This document shows, in pieces, positions 1,912-23,497 of a stretch of DNA of 23,497 bases. The notes beneath the pieces are model-generated. The model was not told the origin of the DNA, searched no databases, and saw only the letters and a program-made list of their open reading frames with translations. A program made the translations under genes and the position numbers. Position 1 is the stretch's first letter, and the number at the start of each line of letters is the position of its first letter. Source of the stretch: a virus. The stretch lies in IMG/VR virus record IMGVR_UViG_3300005664_000088, positions 1 through 23,497 of that record; one strand, 5' to 3'.

Positions 1912-2115
1912 CTATTTCTTCTTTTTATTAAAGGCTGCTACGCCTTTCTTATCTGCGGCCATATCTTTCTTAGAGCCTTCTTTCCCGTGGGCACCCTTGG
2001 CGTCTGCCTTAGCGTCCTTAGGGGAGTTTTCCCATTTGTTTAAAGTCATTTTTTTCTTTTTAGCCATTGAGGGTGTACCTACTTGTTTACCTATGGAAGA
2101 CCTAGAGATTGTCAT
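1912..2115 (-). CDS. small lysine-rich protein with N-K-W-E-x-S motif
   Basis: This is a 67-aa frame from ATG at 2115 that overlaps the stop of the preceding gene as TAATG. A second ATG at 2067 would give a 51-aa protein beginning M-A-K-K-K-K, like its neighbour. Both have only weak ribosome-binding sites, so the start is uncertain. The body is lysine- and alanine-rich with the motif W-E-x-S-x-x-D-x-x-x-D, which I have seen in short, highly basic phage proteins of unknown function, and it ends in a K-K-K-K tail. There is no membrane segment. Composition would suit nucleic-acid binding or a packaged basic protein; that is inference. Confidence 0.55.
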   Translation of the reverse strand: MTISRSSIGKQVGTPSMAKKKKMTLNKWENSPKDAKADAKGAHGKEGSKKDMAADKKGVAAFNKKKK

Positions 2116-2369
2116 TAGATGGTCTTGCCTGATTTGTTTCGTTTGCCTCTGTTGGCTTTTTTAGTTTCCATTTTGAGGTTTGATTTTGAGTTATTTCTAG
2201 GATTAGAATCCTGGTGTCCGACATCTTTACCGTCACCCTTGTGGGCTTTACCGGCTTTGACCATTTCGGCACGAGCCTTGTTCCTAGCCGCTCGGTTTTT
2301 AATTTGCTCAGGCTTACCTTGGTACTCTTTATAGTGCTTTTTCAGCTGTTCTTTAGTTCTATTAGGCAT
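2115..2369 (-). CDS. HNH-like small basic protein, degenerate active site
   Basis: This is an 84-aa basic protein. Residues 17-35 (Y-Q-G-K-P-E-Q then R-A-A-R-N-K-A-R) resemble the helical lead-in of small phage HNH-type proteins. Residues 49-75 read D-V-G-H-Q-D, then N-N-S-K-S-N-L and A-N-R, lining up with the usual D-H-x-x-P-L-x-x-G-G-x-N-x-x-x-N-L core. H52, N60 and N64 are present. The usual first-motif D-H is G-H, and the final histidine of HNH seems to be replaced (N73), so nuclease activity is doubtful. HNH proteins near phage packaging genes can aid terminase, but here it follows a glycosylation cassette. The gene begins eight bases after the stop of the DUF115 gene and has no clear Shine-Dalgarno. 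Confidence 0.55.
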   Translation of the reverse strand: MPNRTKEQLKKHYKEYQGKPEQIKNRAARNKARAEMVKAGKAHKGDGKDVGHQDSNPRNNSKSNLKMETKKANRGKRNKSGKTI

Positions 2370-2377
2370 CTTGACGA

Positions 2378-3421
2378 CTATTCTACAGGGTCAGGATCTA
2401 CTGAAGGAAGGGTTACAGATCTCTTTTGGACCTCCCCTAGGGTTTCCTTTTTGGGCACTTTGGTTTTGAAAAAGCTGGTAAAACTAAAGTCCCTTTGGGG
2501 TCTTGTCATGTTGGAAAACAAATGTCCTACTAATCCATCATCGTACACCTGGTACTTGATATCAAAATGTGGGGAAGAGAAAAGATTTTCAAAATCCTGG
2601 GCTTGAGCCATAAGCTCCCCTGTGGTGTAGAACTTTTTAAAAGCGGCAATTTTGATAACAGTGTTTTCAGGCATAGCCTCAGAAGTTTCTTGGACTTTGT
2701 CTTCCAGGAAAGCCTTGTCAGCCTCCGATAACTGCGTTAAAGGAAGCTCTACGGGAATGTACTTCTTTCTGTCTTTTTTGTCTCTCTCCAGCAACTGTGC
2801 TGGTGTAGGGTTATGGATACAGGAGTCAAAACCCACCAAGGTGATGTCGCGTATGCCCAAGGCGTGAGCTATGGCTACACAGCGAGTCCCACTGGAAGTT
2901 CCCCCTGAGATAATAGGTTCTTTAATCATGTGTGCGAATTCTTTTATGGCTTCCACTTCAGTGTGCCAGCCCATAACCCTAGCACCGTTATCCATCAAGT
3001 ATTTCGCGTAGCCTGGGTTAGCCATTGAGGCAACCAGGAAGATGGTTTTAGGGGGAATGGTTTCAAACAAAGAAGCGCGGTTAACCCCGTGGGTGCTTTC
3101 ACCGTTAAAGTCACGACCATCCAGAATGACACAGAAATCTGGCTCGATACCCATAGCTACCAACCTAGGCAGTGAGTGCTTGACGCAAAAAAGAATGAAA
3201 GGACGACTGGGGTTGGCCATTCGCTCCTTTAGATTCAACTCTGTTGCGTACTTCTCTAAAGAAGGACCTGCAGAACAGATGATGGCTTCGTAGCCGTTAG
3301 GGTAAAACATACGATCAAACCAGGTGGGAATAGTTTGCAGGTTCTCTTTAATGTTGTTCACGGTGTCTTCTTTGGAGACAGCTAAAACAGCGTTGACTTT
3401 AACAGGTAGAAAATTAGTCAT
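2378..3421 (-). CDS. DUF115/MptE-like (Maf flagellin-modification-type) glycosyltransferase-related protein
   Basis: This 347-aa protein has the hallmarks of the DUF115 family: I-I-C-S-A-G-P-S-L-E at about residues 47-56 (a nucleotide-binding-type G-P-S-L loop), D-F-C-V-I-L-D at 95-101, G-G-T-S-S-G at 173-178, and I-T-L-V-G-F-D at 193-199. The family includes archaeal MptE (6-hydroxymethylpterin pyrophosphokinase) and bacterial Maf proteins, thought to transfer nonulosonic sugars to flagellin. In a phage, next to two glycosyltransferases and a methyltransferase, a glycan-transfer role is far more likely than pterin synthesis; that is inference from context. It overlaps the methyltransferase gene by 8 bases and ends the cassette. 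The last 60 residues are charged and low in hydrophobics. No signal peptide, so it should be cytosolic. Confidence 0.72.
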   Translation of the reverse strand: MTNFLPVKVNAVLAVSKEDTVNNIKENLQTIPTWFDRMFYPNGYEAIICSAGPSLEKYATELNLKERMANPSRPFILFCVKHSLPRLVAMGIEPDFCVILDGRDFNGESTHGVNRASLFETIPPKTIFLVASMANPGYAKYLMDNGARVMGWHTEVEAIKEFAHMIKEPIISGGTSSGTRCVAIAHALGIRDITLVGFDSCIHNPTPAQLLERDKKDRKKYIPVELPLTQLSEADKAFLEDKVQETSEAMPENTVIKIAAFKKFYTTGELMAQAQDFENLFSSPHFDIKYQVYDDGLVGHLFSNMTRPQRDFSFTSFFKTKVPKKETLGEVQKRSVTLPSVDPDPVE

Positions 3422-4037
3422 GTGGGTTAATTACCGATGTGTCGTATCTGGTATCGGGTTTAATGGCCTCGATACGGAAGTCCCTAGAGGGACCCATGTG
3501 GGTTACCGGTGCAGCTTCTCGTATACGTGTAAAGCCACAACGTTCTAGAACAGGTGCCAAGGTTTGGAAAGTCCAACCCCAGCGGTGAATCATGTAAGGT
3601 CTATTTTCAAATTGCTCACCGTAGAGACCCATGAGACCCAAACGGTCAATCATCTTTAAGTCCCTGGAAGTGTGAAGTTGTAGAATGTTAATAGCGCATT
3701 TAACAACATCTGGCATTTCAAAGGCCACCGAACCTCCTGGCTTTAAGATCCTAAGCCACTCTTTAAGGGTTTTGTCTAAATCATAAACCGGTATGTGCTC
3801 TATGACATGCGAGGAAAATATGTGATCAGCGTAGTCGTCAGGTAAGTCAATAGCTCTTAAATCCGACTCTAGAAAATAAGGGTATTTGTGGGCTTGTTTA
3901 TTAGGGATATCTTCAACGGTGCGTGGGTCAACAAGTTTAAGGTTAACCTCAGGGGCTACAATGTCTACGTTGATCCATTGCTGCATGATGTCGGAACCTT
4001 TAATTTTGTTTCCACAGCCGAGGTTTAGGTTAAGCAT
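3414..4037 (-). CDS. SAM-dependent methyltransferase (class I, type 11)
   Basis: This 207-aa protein begins almost directly with the SAM-binding loop L-N-L-G-C-G-N (residues 4-10). The acidic residue expected to hold the ribose is D25 (N-V-D-I), and the post-motif region reads S-S-H-V-I-E-H-I at 75-82, followed by I-L-K-P-G-G-S at 97-103. This matches the small class I methyltransferases common in polysaccharide and glycan clusters. The C-terminal half (H-R-W-G-W-T then L-E-R-C-G-F) also fits. It overlaps both neighbours by 8 bases, so it is translated with the glycosyltransferase before it and the DUF115 protein after it. The likely substrate is a sugar of the glycan they build, for example an O-methyl cap. 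DNA or protein methylation is less likely, since no target-recognition domain or N-P-P-Y motif is present. Confidence 0.82.
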   Translation of the reverse strand: MLNLNLGCGNKIKGSDIMQQWINVDIVAPEVNLKLVDPRTVEDIPNKQAHKYPYFLESDLRAIDLPDDYADHIFSSHVIEHIPVYDLDKTLKEWLRILKPGGSVAFEMPDVVKCAINILQLHTSRDLKMIDRLGLMGLYGEQFENRPYMIHRWGWTFQTLAPVLERCGFTRIREAAPVTHMGPSRDFRIEAIKPDTRYDTSVINPHD

Positions 4038-4944
4038 AATCTTTAATTTTTCCTAGTTGTTTAAATACGTCGAGCCATTTGTCGAGAATAATTTGGTCAG
4101 AGTGATGTCTGTCTATGTATGAGTAAGATAAGTTTGTGCAAGACACGTCAGCCAACGAGGTCACTGTATAGTCAAGGCAATCTTTAAAGTCTTTTCCTAT
4201 GACGCCTACAGTGTTTACGAACAAGTGTAAGTGTCCATAGATATCAGTGTTGTCTACAATAACCTTGCAACCAGCATTCAACGCGTCCAAGGCTCTGTTG
4301 GGTGATTTACACTTGGATTTTTCGTCTAGCTTGGTGGGAATAAGCACGATGTTAAAGTCAGCTATCATGGATTCAACTACACCTACACCCCACTTTACAT
4401 AGTCGATGTTCGGATGGTTTAGTTGTGCATCACAAACAGCCGTAATACGGTAAGGGCACTCATTGGCCCATTTCAATAAAGGTAAAGCGTTCGATTGGTG
4501 CCCGAACCAAAGGATTTTAGGCTCACTGTAATCTTTGTTCTCAGGTTTAATCCTGGGGAAAGTCACAGGGTCAGGGATGATGACTGCTAGTTTTCCCGTT
4601 TGTTCGTAAATCCTTGTTTGCATGTTTTCAGTGTTACAAACAATAACATCAACCCTTTCACACATATCCCGGTAATAATCCCCTTCCGGTCTATCGAAGT
4701 AATCGTCACAAATATCAAAAACAGTGGAATAGCCAAAATCTTCGGCAGAAGCAACAGAAAGAAAATTACCACTGCGGTCAAAGTGCTTAGAAAAGATGTT
4801 AACGTCACTGTCTGGATTTGCCTTTCTATCGGTTGTTGCCGCGATGTTATCAGTGTATTTGTTTAAAAGCTCTACTGGTTTCAAGCAGCGGTATCTATGA
4901 GACGCTAAATGGGAGCCCGCTTGGGAGACAAAAGTGACTTTCAT
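4030..4944 (-). CDS. GT-B fold glycosyltransferase (GT4-like)
   Basis: This 304-aa protein starts with K-V-T-F-V-S-Q-A-G-S at residues 2-11, the glycine-containing first strand/loop of GT-B enzymes. The linker motif V-I-I-P-D-P-V lies at 121-127 and the start of the second Rossmann domain (K-I-L-W-F-G-H) at 143-149. The donor-binding stretch S-P-N-R-A-L-D-A-L-N-A-G-C-K-V-I at 214-229 corresponds to the E/D-x-L-x-x-G-x-P-V-I region of GT4 enzymes. It is a little shorter than typical GT4 proteins (about 350-400 aa), with a reduced N-terminal domain. The ATG overlaps the stop of the upstream glycosyltransferase as TAATG. It probably adds a sugar to the same glycan; donor and acceptor cannot be read from sequence. 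Confidence 0.75.
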   Translation of the reverse strand: MKVTFVSQAGSHLASHRYRCLKPVELLNKYTDNIAATTDRKANPDSDVNIFSKHFDRSGNFLSVASAEDFGYSTVFDICDDYFDRPEGDYYRDMCERVDVIVCNTENMQTRIYEQTGKLAVIIPDPVTFPRIKPENKDYSEPKILWFGHQSNALPLLKWANECPYRITAVCDAQLNHPNIDYVKWGVGVVESMIADFNIVLIPTKLDEKSKCKSPNRALDALNAGCKVIVDNTDIYGHLHLFVNTVGVIGKDFKDCLDYTVTSLADVSCTNLSYSYIDRHHSDQIILDKWLDVFKQLGKIKDYA

Positions 4945-5753
4945 TAAAACTCGCTGTCTATCAGTTTACAGGCGTCAAAGCGAATGTTGTAAACAACGGA
5001 GCGTAGGAAATCTTCGTATTCGCTTAACCACATTTCTGCGTGTAGGCAATCCCGCATGTGGGGGAACCAGGGACCTCCGTTTGTGTAGTGCAAAGCTTTA
5101 ATCCTTTCTTTAGCCAGGTGATTCTCAGAGTGACCCGCCACAAAGTGCCAATCCTCAGGCAACCCTTCAACTTCTGTGGGTTTTAACCAAGAAAACTGAT
5201 GGAGGTTTCGCCCAGTTTCAAAACGGACCAAATCAACAAAATCTACACTCTTATTCGAATCAGAAGTCATTTCTAAAACAAACATAGCTGACCAAAGCTT
5301 CTTGTTGTATTGCTCCTGTTTCATACCATCCATTTTAATGGTGTTCTCGGGTTTGTAATCGTGTTTTACGCACCAAAGAGCGGAGGTGGAAGTTCTGTGC
5401 TGTTCAATATACTCGAACATCTTCCCTATGTCGGTAGTCCAAATAAAGTCACAGTCAACAAACATTACCAAGTCGCTCTTTGTAGGATCTTCTAGACGTT
5501 TCCAAAGCTCGCCGATTAAGAACCTGGTGTGGGAGAATTGCGTAGAGAAAGGTCTACCGTCTACCAGATCAACGTACTGACCGTTGGCTTCTATTTTCCA
5601 CTCTCGCGTAAACAAGCCTTGTGAACGAAGATCCCTGTGACAAAGCTTGTGGACTTTAATAGGAACTTTAGCGTATTTCTGAAGGGTAAATTTGGCGACT
5701 TGGTAAGCGGTAGGTTCGCGCTCATCAAATCCTACGTATATGTGATAAGTCAT
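4944..5753 (-). CDS. GT-A glycosyltransferase, GT8-like
   Basis: This 269-aa protein opens with H-I-Y-V-G-F-D-E-R-E at residues 4-13. It carries the metal/nucleotide-sugar binding D-x-D in M-F-V-D-C-D-F at 97-103 and a C-terminal L-H-Y-T-N-G-G-P-W-F at 221-230, where H222 is a likely metal ligand as in GT8 enzymes. Other conserved-looking blocks are F-S-H-T-R-F-L (73-79) and K-H-D-Y-K-P (130-135). This pattern matches a bacterial and phage glycosyltransferase family that I recognise by motif but cannot name. It is the first gene of the four-gene cassette and follows a 68-base gap with a promoter-like motif and hairpin. No clear Shine-Dalgarno precedes its ATG. It probably makes the first transfer of the pathway. 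Confidence 0.8.
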   Translation of the reverse strand: MTYHIYVGFDEREPTAYQVAKFTLQKYAKVPIKVHKLCHRDLRSQGLFTREWKIEANGQYVDLVDGRPFSTQFSHTRFLIGELWKRLEDPTKSDLVMFVDCDFIWTTDIGKMFEYIEQHRTSTSALWCVKHDYKPENTIKMDGMKQEQYNKKLWSAMFVLEMTSDSNKSVDFVDLVRFETGRNLHQFSWLKPTEVEGLPEDWHFVAGHSENHLAKERIKALHYTNGGPWFPHMRDCLHAEMWLSEYEDFLRSVVYNIRFDACKLIDSEF

Positions 5754-5763
5754 TTTAGATTGA

Positions 5764-5802
5764 GGTTTACAGACAGCGGGGAGCTATCGAGAGTCGTAAA
5801 CC
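5764..5802 (-). other. inverted repeat / RNA hairpin upstream of glycosylation cassette
   Basis: On the minus strand GGTTTAC and GTAAACC form a perfect 7-bp stem, extended by GAC/GTC after a one-base bulge, closing an 18-base loop. It lies in the only gap between the small genes after the ejection module and the GT-A gene. No run of T follows, so it is a poor intrinsic terminator; a processing or regulatory hairpin is possible. Confidence 0.45.
5784..5801 (-). promoter_or_regulatory. T7-like RNA polymerase promoter motif (candidate)
   Basis: The minus strand reads GTTTACGACTCTCGATAG. Compared with the T7 core TAATACGACTCACTATAG, 13 of the last 15 positions agree, including TACGACTC and ATAG at +1. 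It is in an intergenic gap, on the coding strand, about 31 bases before the ATG of the GT-A gene. I found no second copy in the window and no T7-type polymerase gene is visible here, so it may be coincidence or the stem of the overlapping hairpin. Confidence 0.35.
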
Positions 5803-5821
5803 AAAGTATGCGGGGTAGGCG

Positions 5822-5998
5822 CTAAGAAGTCAAGGAATTCTTGGTTAAAATCTTCTGTTTAAAGTAGGAAGGTGGGGTGGCTTCTATTTTCTTTAAAGCT
5901 TCAGCACAAGTGTCCAGGCTTTCTTTTAAAACCCTTTCAAACTCCTTTTCCATCCCTTTAAAATCCTCTTGTTCGTAAAGATTATTCTTCGTCAGCAT
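5822..5998 (-). CDS. small hypothetical helical protein
   Basis: This frame encodes 58 aa from ATG at 5998, overlapping the end of the upstream membrane-protein gene by 17 bases. A further in-frame TTG at 6010 is less likely. An internal ATG at 5953, preceded by AAGAGGA about ten bases away, would give a 43-aa protein and is a real alternative. The middle is a charged amphipathic helix (E-K-E-F-E-R-V-L-K-E-S-L), followed by a P-P-S-Y-F-K turn and a basic tail. There is no membrane segment. The family is unknown. It is the last gene before the 68-base gap, so it may end the ejection-module transcript. Confidence 0.5.
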   Translation of the reverse strand: MLTKNNLYEQEDFKGMEKEFERVLKESLDTCAEALKKIEATPPSYFKQKILTKNSLTS

Positions 5999-6206
5999 CG
6001 AGTTTCTCAATCAAACGGGTCATCACACGTGTGTTGTTCTCGACTGTTAAAAGAAACTTGTTACTTAAAGCTTCCAGTTTGTCTAAAAGGACTTCCTGTT
6101 TGGCCCAGAGGGTTTGGACAGTTTTAACTAAAACAACGATGACCAGAATAAGGAACCCTACAAAAGCCCCGTATTCACTAATTATTTTATCTATATATTG
6201 ATCCAA
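5982..6206 (-). CDS. small membrane protein with coiled-coil tail, holin-like
   Basis: This 74-aa protein has one strong transmembrane helix at about residues 14-33 (F-V-G-F-L-I-L-V-I-V-V-L-V), then a long amphipathic, leucine-containing helix likely to be a coiled coil, and an acidic end (D-A-D-E-E). The start is TTG at 6204-6206, five bases after the stop of the 1789-aa gene, with AGGA about 11 bases upstream. The architecture fits a single-span holin or an i-spanin-like protein, yet the lysis cassette is 5 kb away and already holds a holin-like and a spanin pair. It could instead serve the ejection machinery or a second lysis function. Role uncertain. Confidence 0.6.
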   Translation of the reverse strand: MDQYIDKIISEYGAFVGFLILVIVVLVKTVQTLWAKQEVLLDKLEALSNKFLLTVENNTRVMTRLIEKLDADEE

Positions 6207-6211
6207 GTCGC

Positions 6212-9200
6212 TTAGTTTCCTGTCGTTTTTTTCAGGGCTTCATAGCGACCTGTGGCTTTTGCAGCCTTGTTTAATTCTCCGTATTGTACCCCTCCAGCCA
6301 AGCGCTGAGCAACAGCCTCGTTGACAGAAGAGAAAAAAGATCCTATATCGTAAGGTACGTTTTTCTTAGTCAGGAACTCCTGCAAATCAGAAACAACATC
6401 CGAATATTTTTGAGCCCATTTCTTGGCTTCCTCGGGGTTACCCTCTTGGTACGCCCTGAGCTCCCTCGTGCGGTAATTCTTTGCTCTGGCTCTGAATTTA
6501 TCCATTGCTGGCTTGTAACGACCATTCTCAAGGGTAGCCCAGTAGCGCTCGTCTCTGGCGTTTGCAACCGTACCGGAACCAATACCCATAGCTCTAAGAG
6601 CTATCTGATCCGGTTCCGCACGGAGATCCTCAGGAGTAACCAGCTGCTTACCTTTACCGGTAACAGCGCCTTCGTCGTAGTACGTATAAGCTTTTAAAAG
6701 GTTGGAAATAGCCATAGGAGTAATCATCGTACCTATCTTAGCCGTGCTTTCGTCTGTGTTGTAGGCTTTCCAGGCTTGTATACCTTGCGTCAGCATAGAA
6801 CCTTGAACACCTGCCAACTCCGTCATATCCCCTTGAACACCCATCGCAGCCAATATCACGTCTTGACCAATTAAAGGTAATCCGATACGTTTGGATACGT
6901 CGATGTTGGTTAAAGATCTAAAGATACCGTTGGTTACAAAGCGGCCAGCGACAGGGCCCCCAGTGGCTTCCGCCAGAGTTTCCTGCATCAATTGATTGAG
7001 ATCAACATCTTCACCTTCTATTCCTGCGTAGGCTTCTTCAGCCAACTCCTTGAACAGGTCAGCTCCTGGAAGACCCATAAGGCCAGCAAAAAGGAACAAA
7101 GAGGCGACAGTCGTAGCAAGAGCTTTCTTGCCTTCAGGACCTCTACCATACATCCTGGCGAGAAACTCAAGAGCTTGCTGAGGGTAGGTCTGAAAAGGAA
7201 ACACAAAGGCACCTAGGCCACCTCTAAGAACATCAGAGCGACCGGTTTTACCAAAGACTGCGTGAGCTTCGTCTAGACCAAAAAGAACTACGTCATCTAT
7301 AAGGGGAAGACCAGAGATCTTTCTTTGTGCTTGAAATCGGTAATCCTGAGCAAGAACATTAGCAGCCTTTTGAAGAGCCTGTGGATTCTCCTGAAACATC
7401 TGGTAGTGAGCGTTGGCCGTAGCAAATCTTGTTGCTTGCTCCATAGCTGAAATAGGTATACCCAAATAGTTGGTTACCTCGTTTAATTTTGTCTTAGCTT
7501 TACCGCCAATAGTTTTGTCTTTGAAAGAAGCTTTCTCTGTGGTGTCGTAGCGATATGTGCCTGTTTGCTCTTCCAAGAAAGCGGCACCTGTACGACCAGC
7601 CTTAAACATACGCTTGTTAAACTCTATTTGCTTGGACGTGTACTTGTGTTTATCTCTCAAATCGTCCAAAAACTTTTGTTCATCAACTCTAAAAACCAAA
7701 GAACCGTTCTCTAGTTGATACGCGTTTTTATTCGTCATAGCTGACATGGCGACTTTAAAATTATTCGAAATATAGCGCATGTTCTTTATCGGATTAGGGT
7801 TGTACTGCGTCATCGAGCCTAACGTTGTTGTCGGAAGGGTCATAATCTGCAGAGCTGCTGAAGACAGGTTACCGCCCATAGTCCAGACAAAGTTAAGCGC
7901 CCTGATCTCCTGGAAGGAGTCAAAGGGGGAGGATGTATAATCTACATACTTTTGTATCTTTTCTTTAATGTTTTTGTGGTTGTCACCCAGCTCGTTTTGA
8001 ATACGGTTGTTGTATTCTTGCATCATAGGTGCGTATTTCTGCTTGGCGAAGTAATGAGCGCTGGACGTGGCGTAGGAGCTTAGAACCCTGTCCCAGTCTT
8101 GCGAGTACCCTGGAATGTTCTCAGAAGGCGCGAACCTACGGGCAAACCCCTTAAACTTCACATCTCTTTCAAGTTGCTCTTTGATTTGTTGATACGCTTT
8201 CTCATCTTTGGCAGAACCCAATAGACCGCTTAAAAGTTCAAACGTAAGCTGGCTTTCACCAATCTTGTCGTAGACATTGGCGTAAGTCATCTCGAAACCA
8301 TCATAAACAACATAATCGTTGTTATCACGGTAGTCCTTAAGGGCTTTCTGTACGGCTTCGTATTGTTGTCTGTTATACCGGCCAAAATGCTTACCCTCTT
8401 CAACCTGTGCATGGTACACGGGTTTGGCATCCGGCTTCACTTTGCCAGACTTGGTTATGTTGTCTTTCAGGTGTACGGTGAAGCCGTACGTTCCAAAACG
8501 CATGTGAGGGACAAAAGCTTTAGATCGCATACGCTCGATGTCTTCCAGGTTTTGCACTTGGTCCTGGATGAAGTCACGGTCCTTTGCCGACATTTGGTCA
8601 TTATCGAGCATTTTAAAAGCTTCTTTCTGAATAGCTTGAGGAGACATTTTTATAGCGCCTGGGATCAGTTTTTCCAAAGCGGCGCGGGACATCATCTCGG
8701 CATCGTTAAGGGGTTCCTTAAGGTACCTGTCAAGATCTTGAATAACACCCAACATACGCTTGTCTTTAATCGCCACGATTTGACCATCTCTTTCAAAAAC
8801 CAGGGAACCATCTTGATCGTAACTAAAGTTTTGACCGGTCATTCTTAAGTGGTCAATCACAGAACCAGCTTTAACGCGTACTTGCGCTTCGCGCTCAGAG
8901 AAGTATCTTTCGCCCATCTCGCGGTATTTGGTCATCAAGTTTGACTGCATATCTTCCTGCGTCCTTTTGATCGCAAAGACAACACCGGCAACAGGGTTAA
9001 CCGAGGCTAGGTGTGCAAAAGAAGAAAGAAATCTTTGGTACAAACCTAAATCTTTATTAGATGCCTTTTCTTCATCAAACCTATCTTTGGCAAATTGTTC
9101 AAACGCATCGTCTTGATCCTTCCAGTGACCTTCTTGGAGTTGATCGGAAAACTTTTGTAACCTGGCTTCCCTGATGGCTTTTACACCGTCCGCAGCAGCT

Positions 9201-11581
9201 TGTTTAGCCGACTGATCCGCAGTGTCGAACAGATCTTCCAAGGACTGAAGACCTTGCAGCTTCATCTTTCTTTGAACATCTTTAAGTGTTTTTAACGCCT
9301 TGTTAAACTCTCTTTTCAGTTTCTTAGGAACGTAAGGTAGTTTTACACCTTTACGTTTTGCTTCGGCGTATTCAGCGAACTTGTTAGCGATAATCTCACG
9401 GCGACCCTCAGGAGTTTTCGCCCAGGCTTTTAGGGTATTCTTAAGGTCTCCTGAGGCTTTCACCACAAGGGGTATTGATTGATCAACAGCTTCTGCGTCA
9501 AAGGAACCTTTATCCGCCAAATAATTCCAAGCCTCTAGGAGAGGTGTTTCCAAGTTGATAAAATTTGAGGGGTCGTTGAAGTTTAAAGCTGCAGACATCA
9601 AATTAGCTTCTTGCACGGTTTCCACAGGGGCTACGGGGTTACCGTTCTGGTCTAAAGTCTCGGGTACGTTAAAAGACACATTATCAGCTTTAATGCGGTT
9701 TAAAGAACGTATTGTTTCTTGAACCTGCATTTGAACCGCTTGCTGACTTTTTCTTTTGTCGGCTTTAACCTTTAACTTCGAGGCGTTGTTGTTTATTTCA
9801 ACTTCAGGAGCCACGGGTGTCTTTGGTTGTACGGGTGTATCCGCTTTAACCAAGGGTACTGGCTCTGTATACGATTTACGCATAATGGCTCCAGCAATAT
9901 CTTCTTTGGTTCTTGTGACGTTGGACTTGGTGTCAGAAATCTCGCTTTCGGGAACACCTTTGGATCTCGCTATTTCAATAAGCTGAGGTTTGGTGTAAGT
10001 CAAAAGGTCTTTAAACTTTTTGTTTTGAACCTTCATGTCTTCAGCTATAAAACCTGGAAGCTCAGAAATAGAGGGCTCATTCGGCGCTTGAGCTGGTGTA
10101 TATTTATTTTGTCTTTGTTTCACTTGCGCTTGTGCAGTGACCGCAAGGGCTTCCCCTGTGGACTCTAAAGGCAAACTTTGGATTTCAACCTTAAAAGGCT
10201 TTACGGGTTTTGCGATAAAAGGGGATTGCGGGGCAATGATCTCAGCCAGGCTCTTTGTCGCTGCGTCTGTTTGAACCTTATTTAGGTCAACATCACCTAT
10301 TGGTGTTTTGTTTTGGATTTTGACTCTTAAGGGAGCCGTAGGGGTTAACCCCGAGGAATTCTTAAGGTTCATCTGCATGTGGGCCTGAAGGTTTTCCTTG
10401 GCTACCCCTGAGAACAACGACTGGTAACCGAGCCGATTGTTCTCCACACGATCCAGCATGACGTTGGCTGCTTTGATCTTCTCTTCAGCTTTAAAGGCAT
10501 CAGGAGAAAAGCCGTTATTACGAAGAACCGCATCAGCAGCCTCCGGTGTGTCGATAATGGATGATTTTGGAGCTTGCTCTTTTAAAACGTCTTCTCGGAT
10601 AACCTCTTCCAAACCCTTTTTGGCTTTCTCGGGAAGACCTTTAGGAATCCCCGAAAGACCGGAATAAAGACCGGATGCTGATCCGAAACCGCCACCTTGT
10701 ACAGCGGCTGCAATGGCAGAATCGAGGTATTCGTTAGCGGCTTCTTCGGAAGTAAAAGGATTGACCTCCAGATTGGCTGCAGAACGCTCCAGGGCTTGCT
10801 GTAGGACCTCTCCAGGTACCCCTACAGCTATCGCTTCAGAGACCTTACCCATGACGTTCTTGGCGACACCAGGGGCCACATTCTCAAAGACCTTCTCTCC
10901 TACGGCTGTTAAGCCAGTCTTCGCCAGGACCCCACCTAGGACCGCTTCTACGGCTGCTTGCGGGACTGCGAGGACTGCGGCTTTTGGGAGGTTTGGTTCT
11001 TGTCCTTCGTCGAGTTGTCTGGAAACATTAAAACCGGTAAAAATAGGCAAAGCAGCCAGAGTAGCACCGACACCAAAGCCTCCAACCTTGGCGACCAGTT
11101 CGGCAACAGGGTGGGGAAGATTAGGAGCAATAGTAGCGCCAGCGACACCACCTGCCATAATAGCCGCCATTTGCGGAGAATTGAGACCAATCTGTTCTTT
11201 GGCGTAATCAAGAAATTTACCCGCTCCTTCAGGGATAGAATCAGCTTTTAAAATATCACGCCAGTCTGTAGCGTTTACCAACAGCTGTCCAGCTTTTTCT
11301 TTTTGCTTTTGAAACTCCTGCGTGGCTAGGGCTTGCTCTTCGCTATCACCAGTCAACTCATTCCAACCGGCGTTTAAAGCAGCGCCAGCACCGGAAAGAC
11401 CAGCAGCGCCAGCCCTGACAGATTCCCAAAAGGTTGGAGAGGCAGCACTAGGCTGCGGTGTGGGGGCTAGTTGCGCGAAGTGCTGCGTGGCAAACGCCTC
11501 AACTTGCTCAGGGGTAGCTCCTTCGGGGCCCTCGAACTTGTAAATCTTTGAATCGGGACCTTGTACTTTGTAGATCGGCAT
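6212..11581 (-). CDS. giant internal virion / DNA-ejection protein with PLxRG-type region
   Basis: This 1789-aa protein starts at ATG 11579-11581, with GGAAG nine bases upstream. Residues 1-35 (I-Y-K-V-Q-G-P-D, then A-T-P-E-Q-V-E-A-F) match the N-terminal motif of phage ejection proteins. Hydrophobic, glycine/alanine-rich segments lie at about 135-185 and 201-223. A SAP/Rho-N-like helix pair is at about 524-570, and charged helical segments run through 700-900. The C-terminal part (about 1230-1680) resembles the PLxRG domain: M-E-Q-A-T-R-F at 1380, F-P-F-Q-T-Y-P at 1461, and a membrane-like helix at 1487-1509. By analogy with T7 gp15/gp16 it would form the internal core and be injected to help DNA cross the envelope. 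No lytic transglycosylase motif was found. It is the last large gene of the ejection module. Confidence 0.85.
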   Translation of the reverse strand: MPIYKVQGPDSKIYKFEGPEGATPEQVEAFATQHFAQLAPTPQPSAASPTFWESVRAGAAGLSGAGAALNAGWNELTGDSEEQALATQEFQKQKEKAGQLLVNATDWRDILKADSIPEGAGKFLDYAKEQIGLNSPQMAAIMAGGVAGATIAPNLPHPVAELVAKVGGFGVGATLAALPIFTGFNVSRQLDEGQEPNLPKAAVLAVPQAAVEAVLGGVLAKTGLTAVGEKVFENVAPGVAKNVMGKVSEAIAVGVPGEVLQQALERSAANLEVNPFTSEEAANEYLDSAIAAAVQGGGFGSASGLYSGLSGIPKGLPEKAKKGLEEVIREDVLKEQAPKSSIIDTPEAADAVLRNNGFSPDAFKAEEKIKAANVMLDRVENNRLGYQSLFSGVAKENLQAHMQMNLKNSSGLTPTAPLRVKIQNKTPIGDVDLNKVQTDAATKSLAEIIAPQSPFIAKPVKPFKVEIQSLPLESTGEALAVTAQAQVKQRQNKYTPAQAPNEPSISELPGFIAEDMKVQNKKFKDLLTYTKPQLIEIARSKGVPESEISDTKSNVTRTKEDIAGAIMRKSYTEPVPLVKADTPVQPKTPVAPEVEINNNASKLKVKADKRKSQQAVQMQVQETIRSLNRIKADNVSFNVPETLDQNGNPVAPVETVQEANLMSAALNFNDPSNFINLETPLLEAWNYLADKGSFDAEAVDQSIPLVVKASGDLKNTLKAWAKTPEGRREIIANKFAEYAEAKRKGVKLPYVPKKLKREFNKALKTLKDVQRKMKLQGLQSLEDLFDTADQSAKQAAADGVKAIREARLQKFSDQLQEGHWKDQDDAFEQFAKDRFDEEKASNKDLGLYQRFLSSFAHLASVNPVAGVVFAIKRTQEDMQSNLMTKYREMGERYFSEREAQVRVKAGSVIDHLRMTGQNFSYDQDGSLVFERDGQIVAIKDKRMLGVIQDLDRYLKEPLNDAEMMSRAALEKLIPGAIKMSPQAIQKEAFKMLDNDQMSAKDRDFIQDQVQNLEDIERMRSKAFVPHMRFGTYGFTVHLKDNITKSGKVKPDAKPVYHAQVEEGKHFGRYNRQQYEAVQKALKDYRDNNDYVVYDGFEMTYANVYDKIGESQLTFELLSGLLGSAKDEKAYQQIKEQLERDVKFKGFARRFAPSENIPGYSQDWDRVLSSYATSSAHYFAKQKYAPMMQEYNNRIQNELGDNHKNIKEKIQKYVDYTSSPFDSFQEIRALNFVWTMGGNLSSAALQIMTLPTTTLGSMTQYNPNPIKNMRYISNNFKVAMSAMTNKNAYQLENGSLVFRVDEQKFLDDLRDKHKYTSKQIEFNKRMFKAGRTGAAFLEEQTGTYRYDTTEKASFKDKTIGGKAKTKLNEVTNYLGIPISAMEQATRFATANAHYQMFQENPQALQKAANVLAQDYRFQAQRKISGLPLIDDVVLFGLDEAHAVFGKTGRSDVLRGGLGAFVFPFQTYPQQALEFLARMYGRGPEGKKALATTVASLFLFAGLMGLPGADLFKELAEEAYAGIEGEDVDLNQLMQETLAEATGGPVAGRFVTNGIFRSLTNIDVSKRIGLPLIGQDVILAAMGVQGDMTELAGVQGSMLTQGIQAWKAYNTDESTAKIGTMITPMAISNLLKAYTYYDEGAVTGKGKQLVTPEDLRAEPDQIALRAMGIGSGTVANARDERYWATLENGRYKPAMDKFRARAKNYRTRELRAYQEGNPEEAKKWAQKYSDVVSDLQEFLTKKNVPYDIGSFFSSVNEAVAQRLAGGVQYGELNKAAKATGRYEALKKTTGN

Positions 11582-13811: not shown

Positions 13812-14255
13812 TTAAATTCCGAAAGTTAACAAGAACCCACTCTTTTTGAAACCTTGTTTCTCGAAAAGTCTTTCTTTGGCCGGTGTTCTGTCGTTACTCA
13901 TGAAAGTCATGATTACCGGTAATTTATTTAATTTTGAAAAATCTTTCATGGCTCCTGCCAGAGCTTTAAAGACTTTCCCACCTTTACGGTGTTCTGGGTC
14001 TACAAAAAAAATGTAGTCAGAAATAACAGGAGTCGAACTCCACCAAGTAGTAACTATCTGAGTTCCTACAAAGCCTTTTATTTTACCTTCTTCTTTGAAG
14101 ATAAACAAAGGACTCTCAGACCATTTATCGTAAAAAAACTCTGTTGTTTTAGCTAGGTCTACTTTAGGCAGGTTTTCAAAACCATGTTCTTTAGGGATCG
14201 TAAGGGCCATCTTAATGACAACCGGCAGATCTTCTTTAGCTGCGGTAAAAATCAA
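13812..14255 (-). CDS. GNAT-family N-acetyltransferase
   Basis: This 147-aa protein follows the GNAT fold in order: a first strand with A-A-K-E-D-L-P at 5-11, a central strand I-K-G-F-V-G at 59-64, and D-Y-I-F-F-V-D-P-E-H-R-K-G-G-K-V-F at 80-96, where R90-K-G-G-K is the acetyl-CoA pyrophosphate loop (R/Q-x-x-G-x-G/A, with G-K in place of the second small residue). The last motif is L-F-E-K-Q-G-F at 130-136. The start appears to be TTG at 14253-14255, because the family's first strand begins right there; the next ATG is too far in. It sits between a small virion protein and the ejection proteins, so its substrate may be a virion protein or a host factor met early in infection. Acceptor unknown. 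Confidence 0.82.
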   Translation of the reverse strand: MIFTAAKEDLPVVIKMALTIPKEHGFENLPKVDLAKTTEFFYDKWSESPLFIFKEEGKIKGFVGTQIVTTWWSSTPVISDYIFFVDPEHRKGGKVFKALAGAMKDFSKLNKLPVIMTFMSNDRTPAKERLFEKQGFKKSGFLLTFGI

Positions 14256-14653: not shown

Positions 14654-15010
14654 TTATTTAACTAATGTGTATTTAAAGATACGATTGGTTGAAACATCGT
14701 TCGCGTGGTAAACAGTGAAAAATTGGGTATTTGGGACACAATAGAGGGTTCCACCGGAGATCTCTAAGGCTGCATCACTTGTGTAGGCGGTCAAATGCAC
14801 AACACTCTTAGCTGTACAGGCCAAATCGTTAACAACAGTGCTTGTAGCACCAGCTGTTAAGGTGACAGACCCTTTATTGGCCGTAGCCCTACCTAGCTCC
14901 CTGTCAGTATCTGTCAAATAAATAGTTAAGCCCCTGACCAACTCACTAAGAAAACCTTTTGTTTTAGGGTCTGCAAAATCTGTGGGTTCCGGTAGTCTAA
15001 TTGTCGTCAT
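14654..15010 (-). CDS. small beta-rich tail/virion protein
   Basis: This is a 118-aa protein. After a polar N-terminal 40 residues (L-P-E-P-T-D-F-A-D-P-K-T) the rest is beta-strand-like, with T-L-T-A-G-A-T-S-T-V-V-N-D at 50-62 and a closing T-V-Y-H-A-N-D-V-S-T-N-R-I-F-K-Y at 99-114. This last piece resembles the I-x-H-A-N-N-x-x-x-D-R-x-F-x-Y ending of small phage proteins encoded beside tail hub genes. It overlaps the tail hub gene by one base. It is probably a virion decoration or tail-tip protein; no enzyme motif is present. Exact role unknown. Confidence 0.62.
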   Translation of the reverse strand: MTTIRLPEPTDFADPKTKGFLSELVRGLTIYLTDTDRELGRATANKGSVTLTAGATSTVVNDLACTAKSVVHLTAYTSDAALEISGGTLYCVPNTQFFTVYHANDVSTNRIFKYTLVK

Positions 15011-16845
15011 TAGCGGCCACCATCAGGCTTGATCGCCAAGCGCGTAACGCCCAGTCTAAAGTCACCACCTTGGGTGCTTGTGGAATATTCTAAAGAAGCC
15101 TGTCTACCACGTGCCCTCAAACTAATCTTTTGAGTAGCACTGGTAACCTCAAAGGGTCCCTTTTCTTGAGTTTCTGTTGAGTTGGGGTATTTTTTAGCCC
15201 TAAAAATAAAGTTGGTTGTTTTGATAAAAGTTCCGTCAGGAATGATTCTGTCTACAAAGACAAAGTCCTGTCCATCACCTATATCAAAATCAGCTGTTCT
15301 TAAATAAGCTTTTAAGTTAGAGCCATCATCGTCTTTACCTACCTCATGGGAATAGAGTTTTCCATCAGCCCCTGTAGCGTATGGCCTATCAAAAATATCA
15401 ATGTCATTCCACGCAGTTCTTACAATCGTACCGTCATACCAAACGCGATCCAGGTAGTTATAAACCACATAACGGCTGTTTTCTATTTCGTTGTTAGCAG
15501 GATAAAACCACCAAACCTCGTCAAACTCCGTGTTGGCACCGGCATGTACTTTTTCTTTTTGGTCAAAATTTAAAGAACCTTCGCTGTTAGGGGAAAAGAT
15601 GTATTTTTGAAGGGAACAGAACAACGTTTGAACAACACCATCGTACTGGTAAAAACCTGTTGGGGACATCCAAAAAACAACACCGTTTACATCCACGGCA
15701 GCGTGTTGAGAAACAATCCCAGGGATTTTACCCAGGTTGTCGAAAGAGAAGACAAAGTCTCCACCGATTCGACGCATAGAGTGTAGGGCTTCGTCTGTAA
15801 AGATAACGATTTCGCGGCGTGTCTTGAGAGCTGTAGAGATAAAAGAGCCGGATTCAAGCCTAAAAGAACCCGCTTGGTTTGTCGCTGCGGCAGTCCAAAC
15901 GTTATAATTTTCACTATCACTCCAACGAATCAAAAGCGGATCAAAGATACCAGACACATTGTGCGTTCCAAAAGCCACAACGTGACGTGCGGGTTGAGCT
16001 ACAAGCATAAAATTTACGACACTGGGGGCTGCTGAAGAAATTACTCTGGCCCGTGTGTCTAAGCCATCAGAGGCGACCCAGGTATAGATTTTACCGCCTT
16101 TAGGGTTAGCCAAAAGGTCTTCACCCCAGTTGTCCAGGGACCATTGGCGAAGCTCGGTGCCTACGCCAGAACCACCGCGAGGACGACCCCAACCGGCGCT
16201 TAAACTGGTACCCACAGAAACCCCTGGGGTTCCCCAAGTACCTGCACCCCAACCGGCAGCAAACCCGTTGTCAGCGTCACCGGAGTCCAAAAGGAACTGA
16301 AAAACAGCAGCACCGCCACCTGCGGATACACAGGTTGTAGCGGAAGTCGAGGATTCGATGATGAAGTAATTCGTACCAGCAGATACAATCTGGTATTCAC
16401 TTAAAAGGTTTATACCGCCTATGCTGGCTGTGGTTGCGAAAAGAACGTAGTCACCCGTGCTGCGGTTGTGACCGTCCACACAAACAGTGATAAAAGATGA
16501 GCCTGAAGTTACATGAAAGGGGTTTGAAACGGAAGCGGAGCTTTCAATCGGTGTAACATCGGTAATCTGTCCACCGTTGTATATCTCCAGTTTTTCGTTC
16601 GTACCTACAGCAATATATTTGTCTGAAGCAAGATCAGCCCAGGTAAGCATATCTCTAGGTACTCCTATGAAAGCTTCAGGTGTTGTTTGCTCTTTGGTCC
16701 AGCCACCTATTTTTTCAGGGCGCTTGTAACGAAACCTTACGTGGTCACAATCTACATACTGACCCTCGGCATCATAATCGGTTGTATTGCGATTAATACC
16801 GGGAGCAATGTTTATCTTCTGAATTTGTGTGTCAGAGCTACTCAT
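15010..16845 (-). CDS. P22 gp10-like tail hub / packaged DNA stabilization protein
   Basis: This 611-aa protein is recognisable from its N-terminal block: I-A-P-G-I-N at 12-17, T-T-D-Y-D-A-E-G-Q-Y-V-D at 21-32, and V-R-F-R-Y-K-R-P-E-K-I-G-G-W at 36-49. This is the standard opening of gp10-type tail proteins of P22-like and many environmental podoviruses. A second characteristic region lies around V-F-W-M-S-P-T-G-F-Y-Q-Y at 390-401. The whole is beta-rich with many W and Y, consistent with a propeller-like hub that plugs the tail and holds packaged DNA. It sits between the collar fibre and the small beta-rich protein, in the expected late tail block. Length is slightly greater than P22 gp10 (about 470 aa), the extra being a Gly/Ser-rich insert at about 100-240. 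Confidence 0.82.
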   Translation of the reverse strand: MSSSDTQIQKINIAPGINRNTTDYDAEGQYVDCDHVRFRYKRPEKIGGWTKEQTTPEAFIGVPRDMLTWADLASDKYIAVGTNEKLEIYNGGQITDVTPIESSASVSNPFHVTSGSSFITVCVDGHNRSTGDYVLFATTASIGGINLLSEYQIVSAGTNYFIIESSTSATTCVSAGGGAAVFQFLLDSGDADNGFAAGWGAGTWGTPGVSVGTSLSAGWGRPRGGSGVGTELRQWSLDNWGEDLLANPKGGKIYTWVASDGLDTRARVISSAAPSVVNFMLVAQPARHVVAFGTHNVSGIFDPLLIRWSDSENYNVWTAAATNQAGSFRLESGSFISTALKTRREIVIFTDEALHSMRRIGGDFVFSFDNLGKIPGIVSQHAAVDVNGVVFWMSPTGFYQYDGVVQTLFCSLQKYIFSPNSEGSLNFDQKEKVHAGANTEFDEVWWFYPANNEIENSRYVVYNYLDRVWYDGTIVRTAWNDIDIFDRPYATGADGKLYSHEVGKDDDGSNLKAYLRTADFDIGDGQDFVFVDRIIPDGTFIKTTNFIFRAKKYPNSTETQEKGPFEVTSATQKISLRARGRQASLEYSTSTQGGDFRLGVTRLAIKPDGGR

Positions 16846-16849
16846 GGAC

Positions 16850-17995
16850 TTAAGTTTTAATCATCCAGGTTACAACTTTATAGGGTGCTAAGGTAACCGT
16901 GTGGGTGTGCGTTCCACTTGCTGAGATAGTGTGTGAGTGACCGCCACCTGAACCTGTTGTCGCTGTTGAACCTGTAATGGAGACAGTGCTTGACGAAGCA
17001 GTTGATGTTTTTCCTAAAGTTGCACCAGGATCACTACCGGCAGAAGATTGTTTTATTGTGTACTGCTCGTTTACGGTAGACACCGTATCGTTGTACGCAG
17101 CTGCGCGGTCTGCCGTTAAAGCAGCTCTACCTGCACCATCTGTGCTAAAAACTGTGTGGTAGTGGGCGGCGGCAGTGCCTGTGAGAGTACCAGCGGCGTG
17201 ACTGTGAGATGGAATGTCAGCTTCTAAAAGTGTGTAAGAACCTGTAGAGCCACCGTGGCTGTGGTCACCGCTGGCACCTGTAACAGTCGCTCCGGCGTAA
17301 GATCCACCAGAAGCTGTCAAAGAACCTGTTATGTTTGTCTTCGGAGTACCCGAGTCGTCTTGATTGGCACCTATAACAAGAACATCCCTTAAATCAGGAA
17401 CGTTGAATGTTGTGGTGCCGTTACCTGACCCATGTAAGGTACCAATAGCTGCAAACAAAGCCGCATACGTCGAACGAGAAACAGCTTGACCATTACAAAA
17501 CAACCAGCCACTAGGAATAGAAGCGATTGTACCAGCCCAAGGTTGGAGCATTCCTGGTTGAAATATTCGTGTGCTATCTGTCGTAGAAGCAACGTTAGCC
17601 ACTTTTATAACGTTAGTACCATCACAAGCTACAATCATTCTGTCGCCAGCGGCGAGGTCAACGCTGCTACCCGAACCCGTTGATATTGTCACGGTATAAG
17701 ACCCACTGTAATCAGAGAGTATTACATACATTTTGGATTTAGAAGGAATGAAAACGCTTAGATCACCACTTACAGTTCCTGTTAACTGCAGAATCATGTT
17801 ACGGGCTTCGTCAGAAGCACCGTTTAAAGTCGTTAAAGTGTGGTCTGCGGAGCCGGATATGTTTTCTGTGTGCATACCTGCTATAGAGTCTTCAATTAAC
17901 TGAAAATTGGTGTCAGCCAGGTCCCCCCAGGTGAACTCGTTTTCCCCGTTGGCCTGGTCAATAAAACGTAGAAGGCTTGTGTATGTGCTAGGCAT
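16850..17995 (-). CDS. tail fibre with phage tail collar domain and HxH metal-binding motifs
   Basis: This is a 381-aa protein. The N-terminus (residues 1-45) is a short helical/strand segment likely to attach to the tail. Residues 148-205 are a phage tail collar domain: P-G-M-L-Q-P-W-A-G at 147-155, P-S-G-W-L-F-C-N-G-Q at 161-170, and F-N-V-P-D-L-R at 197-203. Five H-x-H motifs follow, at 245/247, 264/266, 278/280, 353/355 and 363/365, set in Gly/Ser/Thr-rich strands. H-x-H pairs in the T4 fibre proteins coordinate metal ions along the trimer axis. The C-terminus (A-P-Y-K-V-V-T-W-M-I-K-T) is the usual closing strand of collar fibres. It is probably a homotrimeric receptor-binding fibre. Confidence 0.85.
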   Translation of the reverse strand: MPSTYTSLLRFIDQANGENEFTWGDLADTNFQLIEDSIAGMHTENISGSADHTLTTLNGASDEARNMILQLTGTVSGDLSVFIPSKSKMYVILSDYSGSYTVTISTGSGSSVDLAAGDRMIVACDGTNVIKVANVASTTDSTRIFQPGMLQPWAGTIASIPSGWLFCNGQAVSRSTYAALFAAIGTLHGSGNGTTTFNVPDLRDVLVIGANQDDSGTPKTNITGSLTASGGSYAGATVTGASGDHSHGGSTGSYTLLEADIPSHSHAAGTLTGTAAAHYHTVFSTDGAGRAALTADRAAAYNDTVSTVNEQYTIKQSSAGSDPGATLGKTSTASSSTVSITGSTATTGSGGGHSHTISASGTHTHTVTLAPYKVVTWMIKT

Positions 17996-18007: not shown

Positions 18008-18670
18008 CTATACTTTACCGGACAAGGTGTTTTGTTCGGGGTTTTGAGGTGTTTTCGCGCTATCACGTCTCGAACGTCTAGCTTCGTTATTCAAGCTTTC
18101 TAGAGCTCGTGCGTATTTGGTTTCCCAAACGGCGTCTCTCGTGCTGTAGTCTTTCATAAACTCTGCCATGTTTGACATAGTAGCGTAATACAAGGCGTCA
18201 GGGCAGCGAAGAGAGAAATAATTTGTCGATGTAGAAGCGTTTAAATGTTCGACATCTTTGACGCAGTTAATTGTGAAAACAAAGTTTTGATCTGGGGGTG
18301 GTGCCAGCATCCAGGCTGCGCTGTCCCAGTTGGAGAAATATTTAGGCTGTCCTAAAACAGAAGGGTTGGGCCAATAATCTTTCATAAAACTGGCAGTTTT
18401 CATTACGGGGAAAACAGCGCTTGAAGATACATTGTAAAACATATCTTGCACTACGCGGTACCCTTCAGGTTTGAATAAAAACTGAGATCCTGACGTAGCT
18501 GTGACAGAAACCACTTCTGAAACACCGTCCGTGTCCAGCTCTTTCATTAGTCTTTCTTCTGCTAAATAAATAGCTGTAGGAATGAAAGCTGTGAACTCAG
18601 AACTGTCGTCTTCAGCCAAAGCTGCAATCGCAGAAACCAAGCCATCATAGTTTGTAGGTAGTAAAGACAT
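18008..18670 (-). CDS. SU10-type adaptor / head-tail connector protein
   Basis: This 220-aa protein begins with a helical region (Y-D-G-L-V-S-A-I-A-A-L-A-E-D-D, then F-T-A-F-I-P-T-A-I-Y-L-A-E-E-R-L at 26-41) that matches the N-terminal helices of podovirus adaptor proteins, which dock on the portal ring. A beta part follows, with G-Y-R-V-V-Q-D-M at 70-77 and Y-W-P-N-P-S at 99-104, then W-M-L-A-P-P-P-D and a C-terminal helix with S-R-R-D-S. Neighbouring genes are the repeat fibre and the collar fibre. Known role: joining the portal to the tail tube or nozzle. The C-terminal 25 residues are charged and probably disordered. Confidence 0.68.
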   Translation of the reverse strand: MSLLPTNYDGLVSAIAALAEDDSSEFTAFIPTAIYLAEERLMKELDTDGVSEVVSVTATSGSQFLFKPEGYRVVQDMFYNVSSSAVFPVMKTASFMKDYWPNPSVLGQPKYFSNWDSAAWMLAPPPDQNFVFTINCVKDVEHLNASTSTNYFSLRCPDALYYATMSNMAEFMKDYSTRDAVWETKYARALESLNNEARRSRRDSAKTPQNPEQNTLSGKV

Positions 18671-23321: not shown

Positions 23322-23334
23322 AACAGGGAGAGCC

Positions 23335-23497
23335 CTAAAGGATACCCACAACAGTTGCTGTGCCAGAAGCACCGACTTTTTCAATGCGGATGGCTTCTAC
23401 AGGACCGTTGACCACGGTTGCAAAAGAGTTTGTTGCTGTCGTGTATGAAGAGGAACCTGCTGAAACCGTGTCCTCTAAATGCGAGAAAAGAAGGGTT
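23335..23497 (-). CDS. C-terminus of an unknown structural-type protein (partial)
   Basis: A minus-strand frame is open from the window edge to TAG at 23335-23337 and encodes 53 residues of a C-terminus rich in T, S, V and A, with a closing beta-like segment (V-E-A-I-R-I-E-K-V-G-A-S-G-T-A-T-V-V-G-I-L). That style suits small phage capsid or decoration proteins. Its stop lies 13 bases before the chosen TTG of the esterase-like gene, which supports the shorter reading of that gene. The protein's N-terminus is outside the window, so no family can be given. Confidence 0.55.
   Translation of the reverse strand, partial: TLLFSHLEDTVSAGSSSYTTATNSFATVVNGPVEAIRIEKVGASGTATVVGIL

Follow-up and report, generated by a model that had tools for sequence, protein, structure and literature searches.

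A four-gene cassette between the ejection and lysis genes

We analysed a 23,497-base IMG/VR virus contig from an uncultured tailed phage (IMGVR_UViG_3300005664_000088; the whole contig is referred to as the window), in which four consecutive minus-strand open reading frames (ORFs) lie between a gene for a large ejection-type protein (6212-11581) and an endolysin gene (830-1597). In reading order, these encode a GT-A glycosyltransferase (GT-A; 5753-4944, 269 residues), a GT-B glycosyltransferase (GT-B; 4944-4030, 304 residues), a class I S-adenosylmethionine-dependent methyltransferase (MT; 4037-3414, 207 residues) and a DUF115/MptE-like protein with a Maf-type core (3421-2378, 347 residues). 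The original prediction, drawn from the nucleotide sequence, had described exactly this block between ejection and lysis modules, and the ORFs and family matches bear it out. Overlaps of 8 bases between GT-B and MT, and between MT and DUF115, were correctly given; GT-A and GT-B share 1 base (TAATG) rather than the 3 proposed, with the GT-B start falling inside the GT-A stop codon.

GT-A was a full-length member of phrog_28018 (3.3e-50), and the aspartates of its DxD motif (D100 and D102) were invariant in an alignment of 10 sequences. No Pfam cut-off was reached, including that of GT8, the sole Pfam match being to PF00535 at 0.0029, below cut-off. The nearest solved sequence was WbbM (6u4b; 8e-4), followed by a GT8 enzyme (5gvv). 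GT-B similarly matched no Pfam family above cut-off. Its AlphaFold2 model, built from 22 sequences, was nevertheless predicted to adopt a clean, GT4-like two-Rossmann GT-B fold with a predicted local distance difference test (pLDDT) score of 91.9. Comparison of this model with the PDB using Foldseek returned 95 matches at E <= 0.001, the leading ones being GT-B glycosyltransferases; the nearest solved folds were SenB, the protein-glycosylating enzymes GtfC/Gtf3, and TarM/SdgB. The E-x7-E region reads K-S-x-N-R-x-x-D and includes a conserved K213-S214-x-N216-R217, in which K, S and R are invariant and N is present in 21 of the 22 sequences. Relatives of GT-B were found in 38 viral loci, while tblastn against the cultured phage collection gave no match. 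The HTVC023P glycosyltransferase gp77 was considered as a member of this family and rejected, as it fell outside the family by the first two-sequence profile.

MT belongs to PF08241 (Methyltransf_11; 7.7e-12, above cut-off), and the methyltransferase domains of cassette relatives match TylF and Methyltransf_24. Profile searches thus recovered two of the four expected families above cut-off (PF08241, and PF01973 for the DUF115 protein) but neither GT8 for GT-A nor any Pfam family for GT-B, whose fold is predicted. None of the four proteins contains a membrane segment, as judged by the absence of any 19-residue window above 1.6 on the Kyte-Doolittle scale. The possibility of an anti-phage defence system was also considered and dropped, PADLOC having returned generic methyltransferase matches only.

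The DUF115 protein resembles the Maf/PseD core

The DUF115 protein was assigned to PF01973 with 90.1 bits against a cut-off of 34.6 (1.9e-25), and the same cut-off was exceeded by its relatives at loci L001, L003, L021, L040, L085 and L145. An AlphaFold2 model built from 30 sequences (pLDDT 87.5) displayed a Maf/MptE core. The best Foldseek match to this model was the archaeal 6-hydroxymethylpterin diphosphokinase (HPPK) MptE (8sd5; E 2.3e-7, TMt 0.59), while Maf (5mu5) was matched at E 6.7e-7 (TMq 0.50) over 297 alignment columns. Sequence profiles placed Maf (0.0012) ahead of HPPK (0.44), whereas the single window sequence favoured HPPK in phmmer, with a weak match (0.014). The only meaningful NCBIfam match was to PseD, a flagellin modification family (4e-9; three divergent members), although at 35.6 of 670 bits this lies far under the cut-off and covers only model positions 229-371 of 640. 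The original prediction had tied the DUF115 protein to Maf-type glycosylation, and the sequence and fold matches to Maf 5mu5, together with the PseD match, support that tie.

The DLDGD acidic motif of MptE is catalytic. The corresponding SDLDGD of 8sd5 is replaced by x-[I/V/L]-L-D-[P/G]-R in 30 of 30 phage DUF115 proteins (alignment column 99 being I, V or L and column 103 R throughout), such that two of the three acidic residues are lost.

A tblastn search with the DUF115 protein gave no match in the cultured phage collection, and a single-sequence scan of IMG/VR found nothing, an alignment query being required. The best viral structure matches came from uncultured Caudovirales phages and carry the annotation 'MptE-like' or methyltransferase. 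A literature search found no paper combining DUF115, phage and glycosyltransferase, and a search on MptE-like returned no titles on phage MptE-like proteins.

GT-A and DUF115 co-occur, co-diverge and probably serve one pathway

Relatives of the DUF115 protein were collected from IMG/VR by an alignment search (at least 525 confirmed), and the nearest 80 were kept for counts. The contigs surveyed are fragments; six of the 80 begin inside the DUF115 ORF and 74 reach upstream of it. All 74 assessable contigs carry GT-A on the same strand as DUF115 and upstream of it, a count that applies to this clade only, since the seed loci of the search had themselves been identified by way of GT-A and only the nearest relatives were kept. 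Furthermore, the two genes overlapped (stop-to-stop frames) or lay within about 20 bases of each other in 72 of these. The exceptions were L022 (on the same contig as L001), where GT-B and MT intervene, and L088, where the spacing is 480 bases. The linkage is one-way, GT-A also being found without DUF115. A separate arrangement without DUF115 was seen at L138 (1962-5476), where apparent glycosyltransferases, a methyltransferase and a GT-A lie just upstream of terminase genes.

DUF115 forms the C-terminal part of a fusion of 550 to 800 residues in 73 of the 74 contigs. Most fusions comprise a second GT-A-like domain, a class I methyltransferase domain resembling sugar O-methyltransferases and DUF115, with a length of about 770 residues; those of about 550 to 575 residues have no methyltransferase. 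The N-terminal domain of the fusions often reads WLDADT, a DxD motif. Dereplication at 85% left 32 lineages in all. Two further IMG/VR contigs, L001 and L097, share with the window the unfused order GT-A, GT-B, MT, DUF115. At L145, separate genes encode GT-A, a second GT-A-like protein, three methyltransferases (TylF and Methyltransf_24 types included, one with a weak match to rhamnosyl-O-methyltransferase/CmcI), a glycosyltransferase-like protein and DUF115. Taken together, the fused, unfused and L145 arrangements suggest that the activities are kept as a set, with different families supplying the second transferase and the methyltransferase.

Pairwise distances for GT-A and DUF115 were strongly correlated (r = 0.83), a value reached in none of 2000 permutations. 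At the 14 loci that also carry ribonucleotide reductase, r was 0.80 for DUF115 and GT-A, compared with 0.28 for DUF115 and the reductase and 0.24 for GT-A and the reductase; with so few loci, this contrast is suggestive only.

The proposal that the four genes serve one pathway is therefore strengthened by the shared order in L001 and L097, the fusions in 73 relatives and the co-divergence of GT-A and DUF115. Co-occurrence in related phages, set beforehand as the observation on which the proposal should stand or fall, was near complete, both for GT-A with DUF115 (74 of 74) and in the recurrence of the four-gene order.

Genomic context and distribution

The cassette follows a large virion-type protein in the window, L016, L024, L065 and L092; in L001, L097, L134 and numerous other loci, it comes after genes for ribonucleotide reductase. 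L001 and L097 do not contain the window's adjoining virion genes within the stretches examined, and in L001 the cassette is additionally preceded by thymidylate synthase, a thymidylate kinase-like gene and a DNA methyltransferase. Many fused cassettes follow ribonucleotide reductase and face structural genes on the opposite strand. The recurrence of the cassette as a unit in these differing contexts agrees with the earlier suggestion of an accessory module. In the stretch read of the related phage DSL-LC04 no such cassette was present, and in HTVC023P the stabilisation and ejection genes flank a different set of glycosyltransferases.

A further argument, that the cassette has its own upstream gap, fails. 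The interval upstream of GT-A (5754-6211) is mostly occupied by two small minus-strand ORFs, one at 5982-6206 (74 residues, outside the pathway, with one hydrophobic membrane-spanning stretch judged by eye) and one at approximately 5822-5998 (58 residues), leaving about 70 bp before GT-A. Scans for promoter-like matches in this interval and for terminators gave no excess over shuffled sequence. The GC content of the cassette (0.41-0.45) is near that of the adjoining genes, so composition gives no sign of recent acquisition. Whole-window megablast returned no match.

The cassette is shared by many uncultured phages, usually in partly fused form. When two fused proteins were searched against 50,697 cultured phage records, one was unmatched and the other matched two records via its N-terminal domain only. 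A genome collection of 84,980 species yielded only two fusion relatives, both on contigs of metagenome-assembled genomes with phage-type genes; these scans used short patterns or plain tblastn, by which distant relatives are missed.

Two gene types recur near the cassette. Relatives of the small HNH protein (2115-2369, minus strand, 84 residues), encoded directly downstream of DUF115 in the window, are found near the cassette in about 20 fused loci as well as in L001 and L097, and may represent a mobility element. A 2-oxoglutarate (2OG)-Fe(II) oxygenase (PF13640; L033:2742-3338 and relatives) accompanies the fused cassette at 40 loci, at a distance of about 1-2 kb and mostly upstream on the same strand. 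Hydroxylation followed by glycosylation would be one reading of this neighbour; no such oxygenase was seen in the window.

Comparison with known glycosylation systems

Maf enzymes glycosylate serine and threonine residues of flagellin and accept varied donors, CbMaf transferring nonulosonic acid or 3-deoxy-D-manno-oct-2-ulosonic acid (Kdo) (PMC11339370). With the Maf/PseD proteins (Magnetospirillum Maf 5mu5, Clostridium botulinum CbMaf and Aeromonas caviae Maf1), the phage DUF115 proteins share the PF01973 core, the S-[AG]-G-P-S motif, the fold of the central domain and a cytosolic location. However, they are proteins of 280-350 residues or fusion domains that do not possess the remainder of the 630-670-residue Maf protein, no flagellin acceptor is encoded near the phage cassette, and they fall short of the PseD cut-off and full-length architecture. 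With archaeal MptE (8sd5) they likewise share PF01973 and the core fold, but differ in the broken acidic motif and in the fusion of relatives to glycosyltransferase and methyltransferase domains.

Among phages, the cluster O mycobacteriophage Corndog carries an O-methyltransferase, two glycosyltransferases and an N-acetylglucosamine (GlcNAc)-transferase adjacent to one another in its structural region, for which capsid modification has been proposed (PMC4351075). As in the window, glycosyltransferase and methyltransferase genes thus reside inside a virion or late region, although in this comparison of gene content no DUF115/Maf protein is described for Corndog and the host group is different. 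Additionally, with GT-A, GT-B and DUF115 as tblastn queries in the phage collection, no mycobacteriophage was among the matches listed. Virion glycosylation has reportedly since been shown in Corndog-like mycobacteriophages.

The giant Caulobacter phages provide a second parallel: CcrColossus gp126-gp131 and CcrSC gp169-gp174 include a PF01973-like gene and the same GT-A family between tail and lysis genes, together with a GT9 and, in CcrSC, an FkbM methyltransferase. The GT-A gene is gp129 in CcrColossus and gp172 in CcrSC. Here, however, the PF01973 match is partial and below cut-off, and gene order and transferase families differ. Finally, streptococcal Gtf3/GtfC, which performs the second step in glycosylation of serine-rich adhesins, has one of the folds closest to GT-B and extends a protein O-glycan in the cytosol, but at about 12% identity and with an acceptor that is not comparable.

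A virion protein as candidate acceptor

The gene identities, co-occurrence, fusion, co-divergence, folds, DxD conservation and lack of membrane segments described above are what the sequences and models show directly; family knowledge suggests the activity, the type of sugar, the order of steps and the acceptor. On this basis, GT-A and a second transferase (GT-B in the window, but mostly a second GT-A domain among the relatives) would lengthen a glycan, with nucleotide sugars of the host as donors. MT probably O-methylates a sugar, a methyl cap being suggested by the TylF-type and Methyltransf_24-type domains of the relatives. The DUF115 protein, whose Maf-like core is the reason for proposing attachment to protein, would most likely form the attachment to a folded protein in the cytosol, or recognise it. 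The acceptor would most likely be a virion protein synthesised at the same time, and a virion protein leads the candidates because Maf enzymes modify flagellin serine and threonine and the Corndog enzymes are proposed to modify the capsid.

We therefore favour, with about even confidence, a reading in which the four genes form one mobile, virus-restricted glycan-modification module, the acceptor of which is most likely a virion protein. The position in the late region of the window, the same place in L016, L024, L065 and L092, and the location between tail and lysis genes in the Caulobacter phages argue for this reading. So do the likeness of the predicted GT-B fold to Gtf3/GtfC and SdgB, which glycosylate proteins, and the absence of membrane segments from the cassette proteins. 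Several points weigh against it. Transferases of the lipopolysaccharide (LPS) core are soluble too, so absent membrane segments are indecisive; the modelled core fold of DUF115 is common to MptE and Maf, and hence non-discriminating; seeding through GT-A and retaining the 80 closest among more than 525 relatives restrict the 74 of 74 linkage to one clade; the cassette is not always within a virion operon; and both acceptor and glycan are putative. A more specific version is tentative and somewhat doubtful: virus-restricted, Maf-like O-glycosylation systems, usually of two polypeptides (GT-A and a glycosyltransferase/methyltransferase/DUF115 fusion), may build an O-methyl-capped glycan directly on virion proteins across a large set of uncultured phages.

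The same genes might instead alter sugars on the surface of the infected host (LPS core, O-antigen or capsule), so that superinfection is blocked or progeny are kept from adsorbing to debris. A GT8-like GT-A, a GT4-like GT-B and a methyltransferase are the usual set of an LPS or capsule cluster, pelagiphage Mosig has GT-A relatives, as do similar large clusters that also encode an epimerase and an FkbM-like methyltransferase, and pelagimyophage glycosyltransferases have been interpreted as modifying LPS (PMC9599517). We nonetheless consider a host surface acceptor unlikely and rank it second: the four genes include no GtrA/GtrB-like flippase, membrane transferase or membrane segment of the kind expected for Gtr-type seroconversion, the Maf relatives are protein glycosyltransferases, and the virion and lysis genes that adjoin the cassette in the window would be late for superinfection exclusion.

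Glycosylation of phage DNA bases, a hypermodification against restriction, ranks third and appears improbable. It would account for cassettes that follow ribonucleotide reductase in L001, L097, L134 and many fused loci, and for the nucleotide-metabolism and DNA methyltransferase genes of L001; sugar-modified phage DNA is known, for example in phage Thanatos (PMC12838424). Such phages commonly carry ribonucleotide reductase, however, and the reductase co-diverges only weakly with the cassette; no hydroxymethylase was recognised among the neighbouring genes, although no systematic search for one was made; and in the window the cassette sits among virion and lysis genes. We also know of no Maf-type protein from DNA modification. 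Far less probable still is that DUF115 is an MptE-like pterin kinase or another enzyme within an unrelated neighbourhood of four genes. Its Pfam family name (MptE-like), its best Foldseek match and the phmmer result point that way. The original prediction had named a pterin enzyme, together with inactive transferases, as an outcome that would undo it. The loss of the acidic run weakens this alternative, while the fold shared by MptE and Maf leaves it standing in part; fusion and tight linkage to glycosyltransferases, and PseD as the only NCBIfam match, further oppose it.

Phage glycosyltransferases are common, mostly with no assigned role. Tight linkage, together with fusion of Maf-type, glycosyltransferase and methyltransferase domains, narrows a loose guess to a defined pathway of few reactions. 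Should the virion prove to be the acceptor, many uncultured phages would be coating their particles with sugar in a way known chiefly from flagella, with a bearing on adsorption and particle stability. The similar gene set in cultured Caulobacter phages makes the module testable.

Other features of the window

All main window genes read on the minus strand, in the order GDSL-lipase-like protein (PF13472), SU10_adaptor adaptor, virion structural proteins, tail-fibre-like, stabilisation-like and acetyltransferase-like proteins, ejection protein, a 1789-residue protein, the four cassette genes, HNH protein, endolysin and small lysis genes. Genes for virion proteins lie, for example, at 15010-16845, 16850-17995 and 18008-18670. 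The GDSL protein, of 712 residues with a GDSL lipase/acylhydrolase domain (21246-23384), lies at the end of the window that holds the virion genes and could be a receptor-deacylating virion enzyme. The acetyltransferase-like gene (13812-14255; phrog_1249) stands among the virion genes and is a possible further modifier. Two small ORFs of about 50 residues each, both very basic and lysine-rich, occupy 1598-2114 between the HNH and endolysin genes, and a small lipoprotein-like ORF with an LASC motif (286-525), following the endolysin, is probably an outer spanin.

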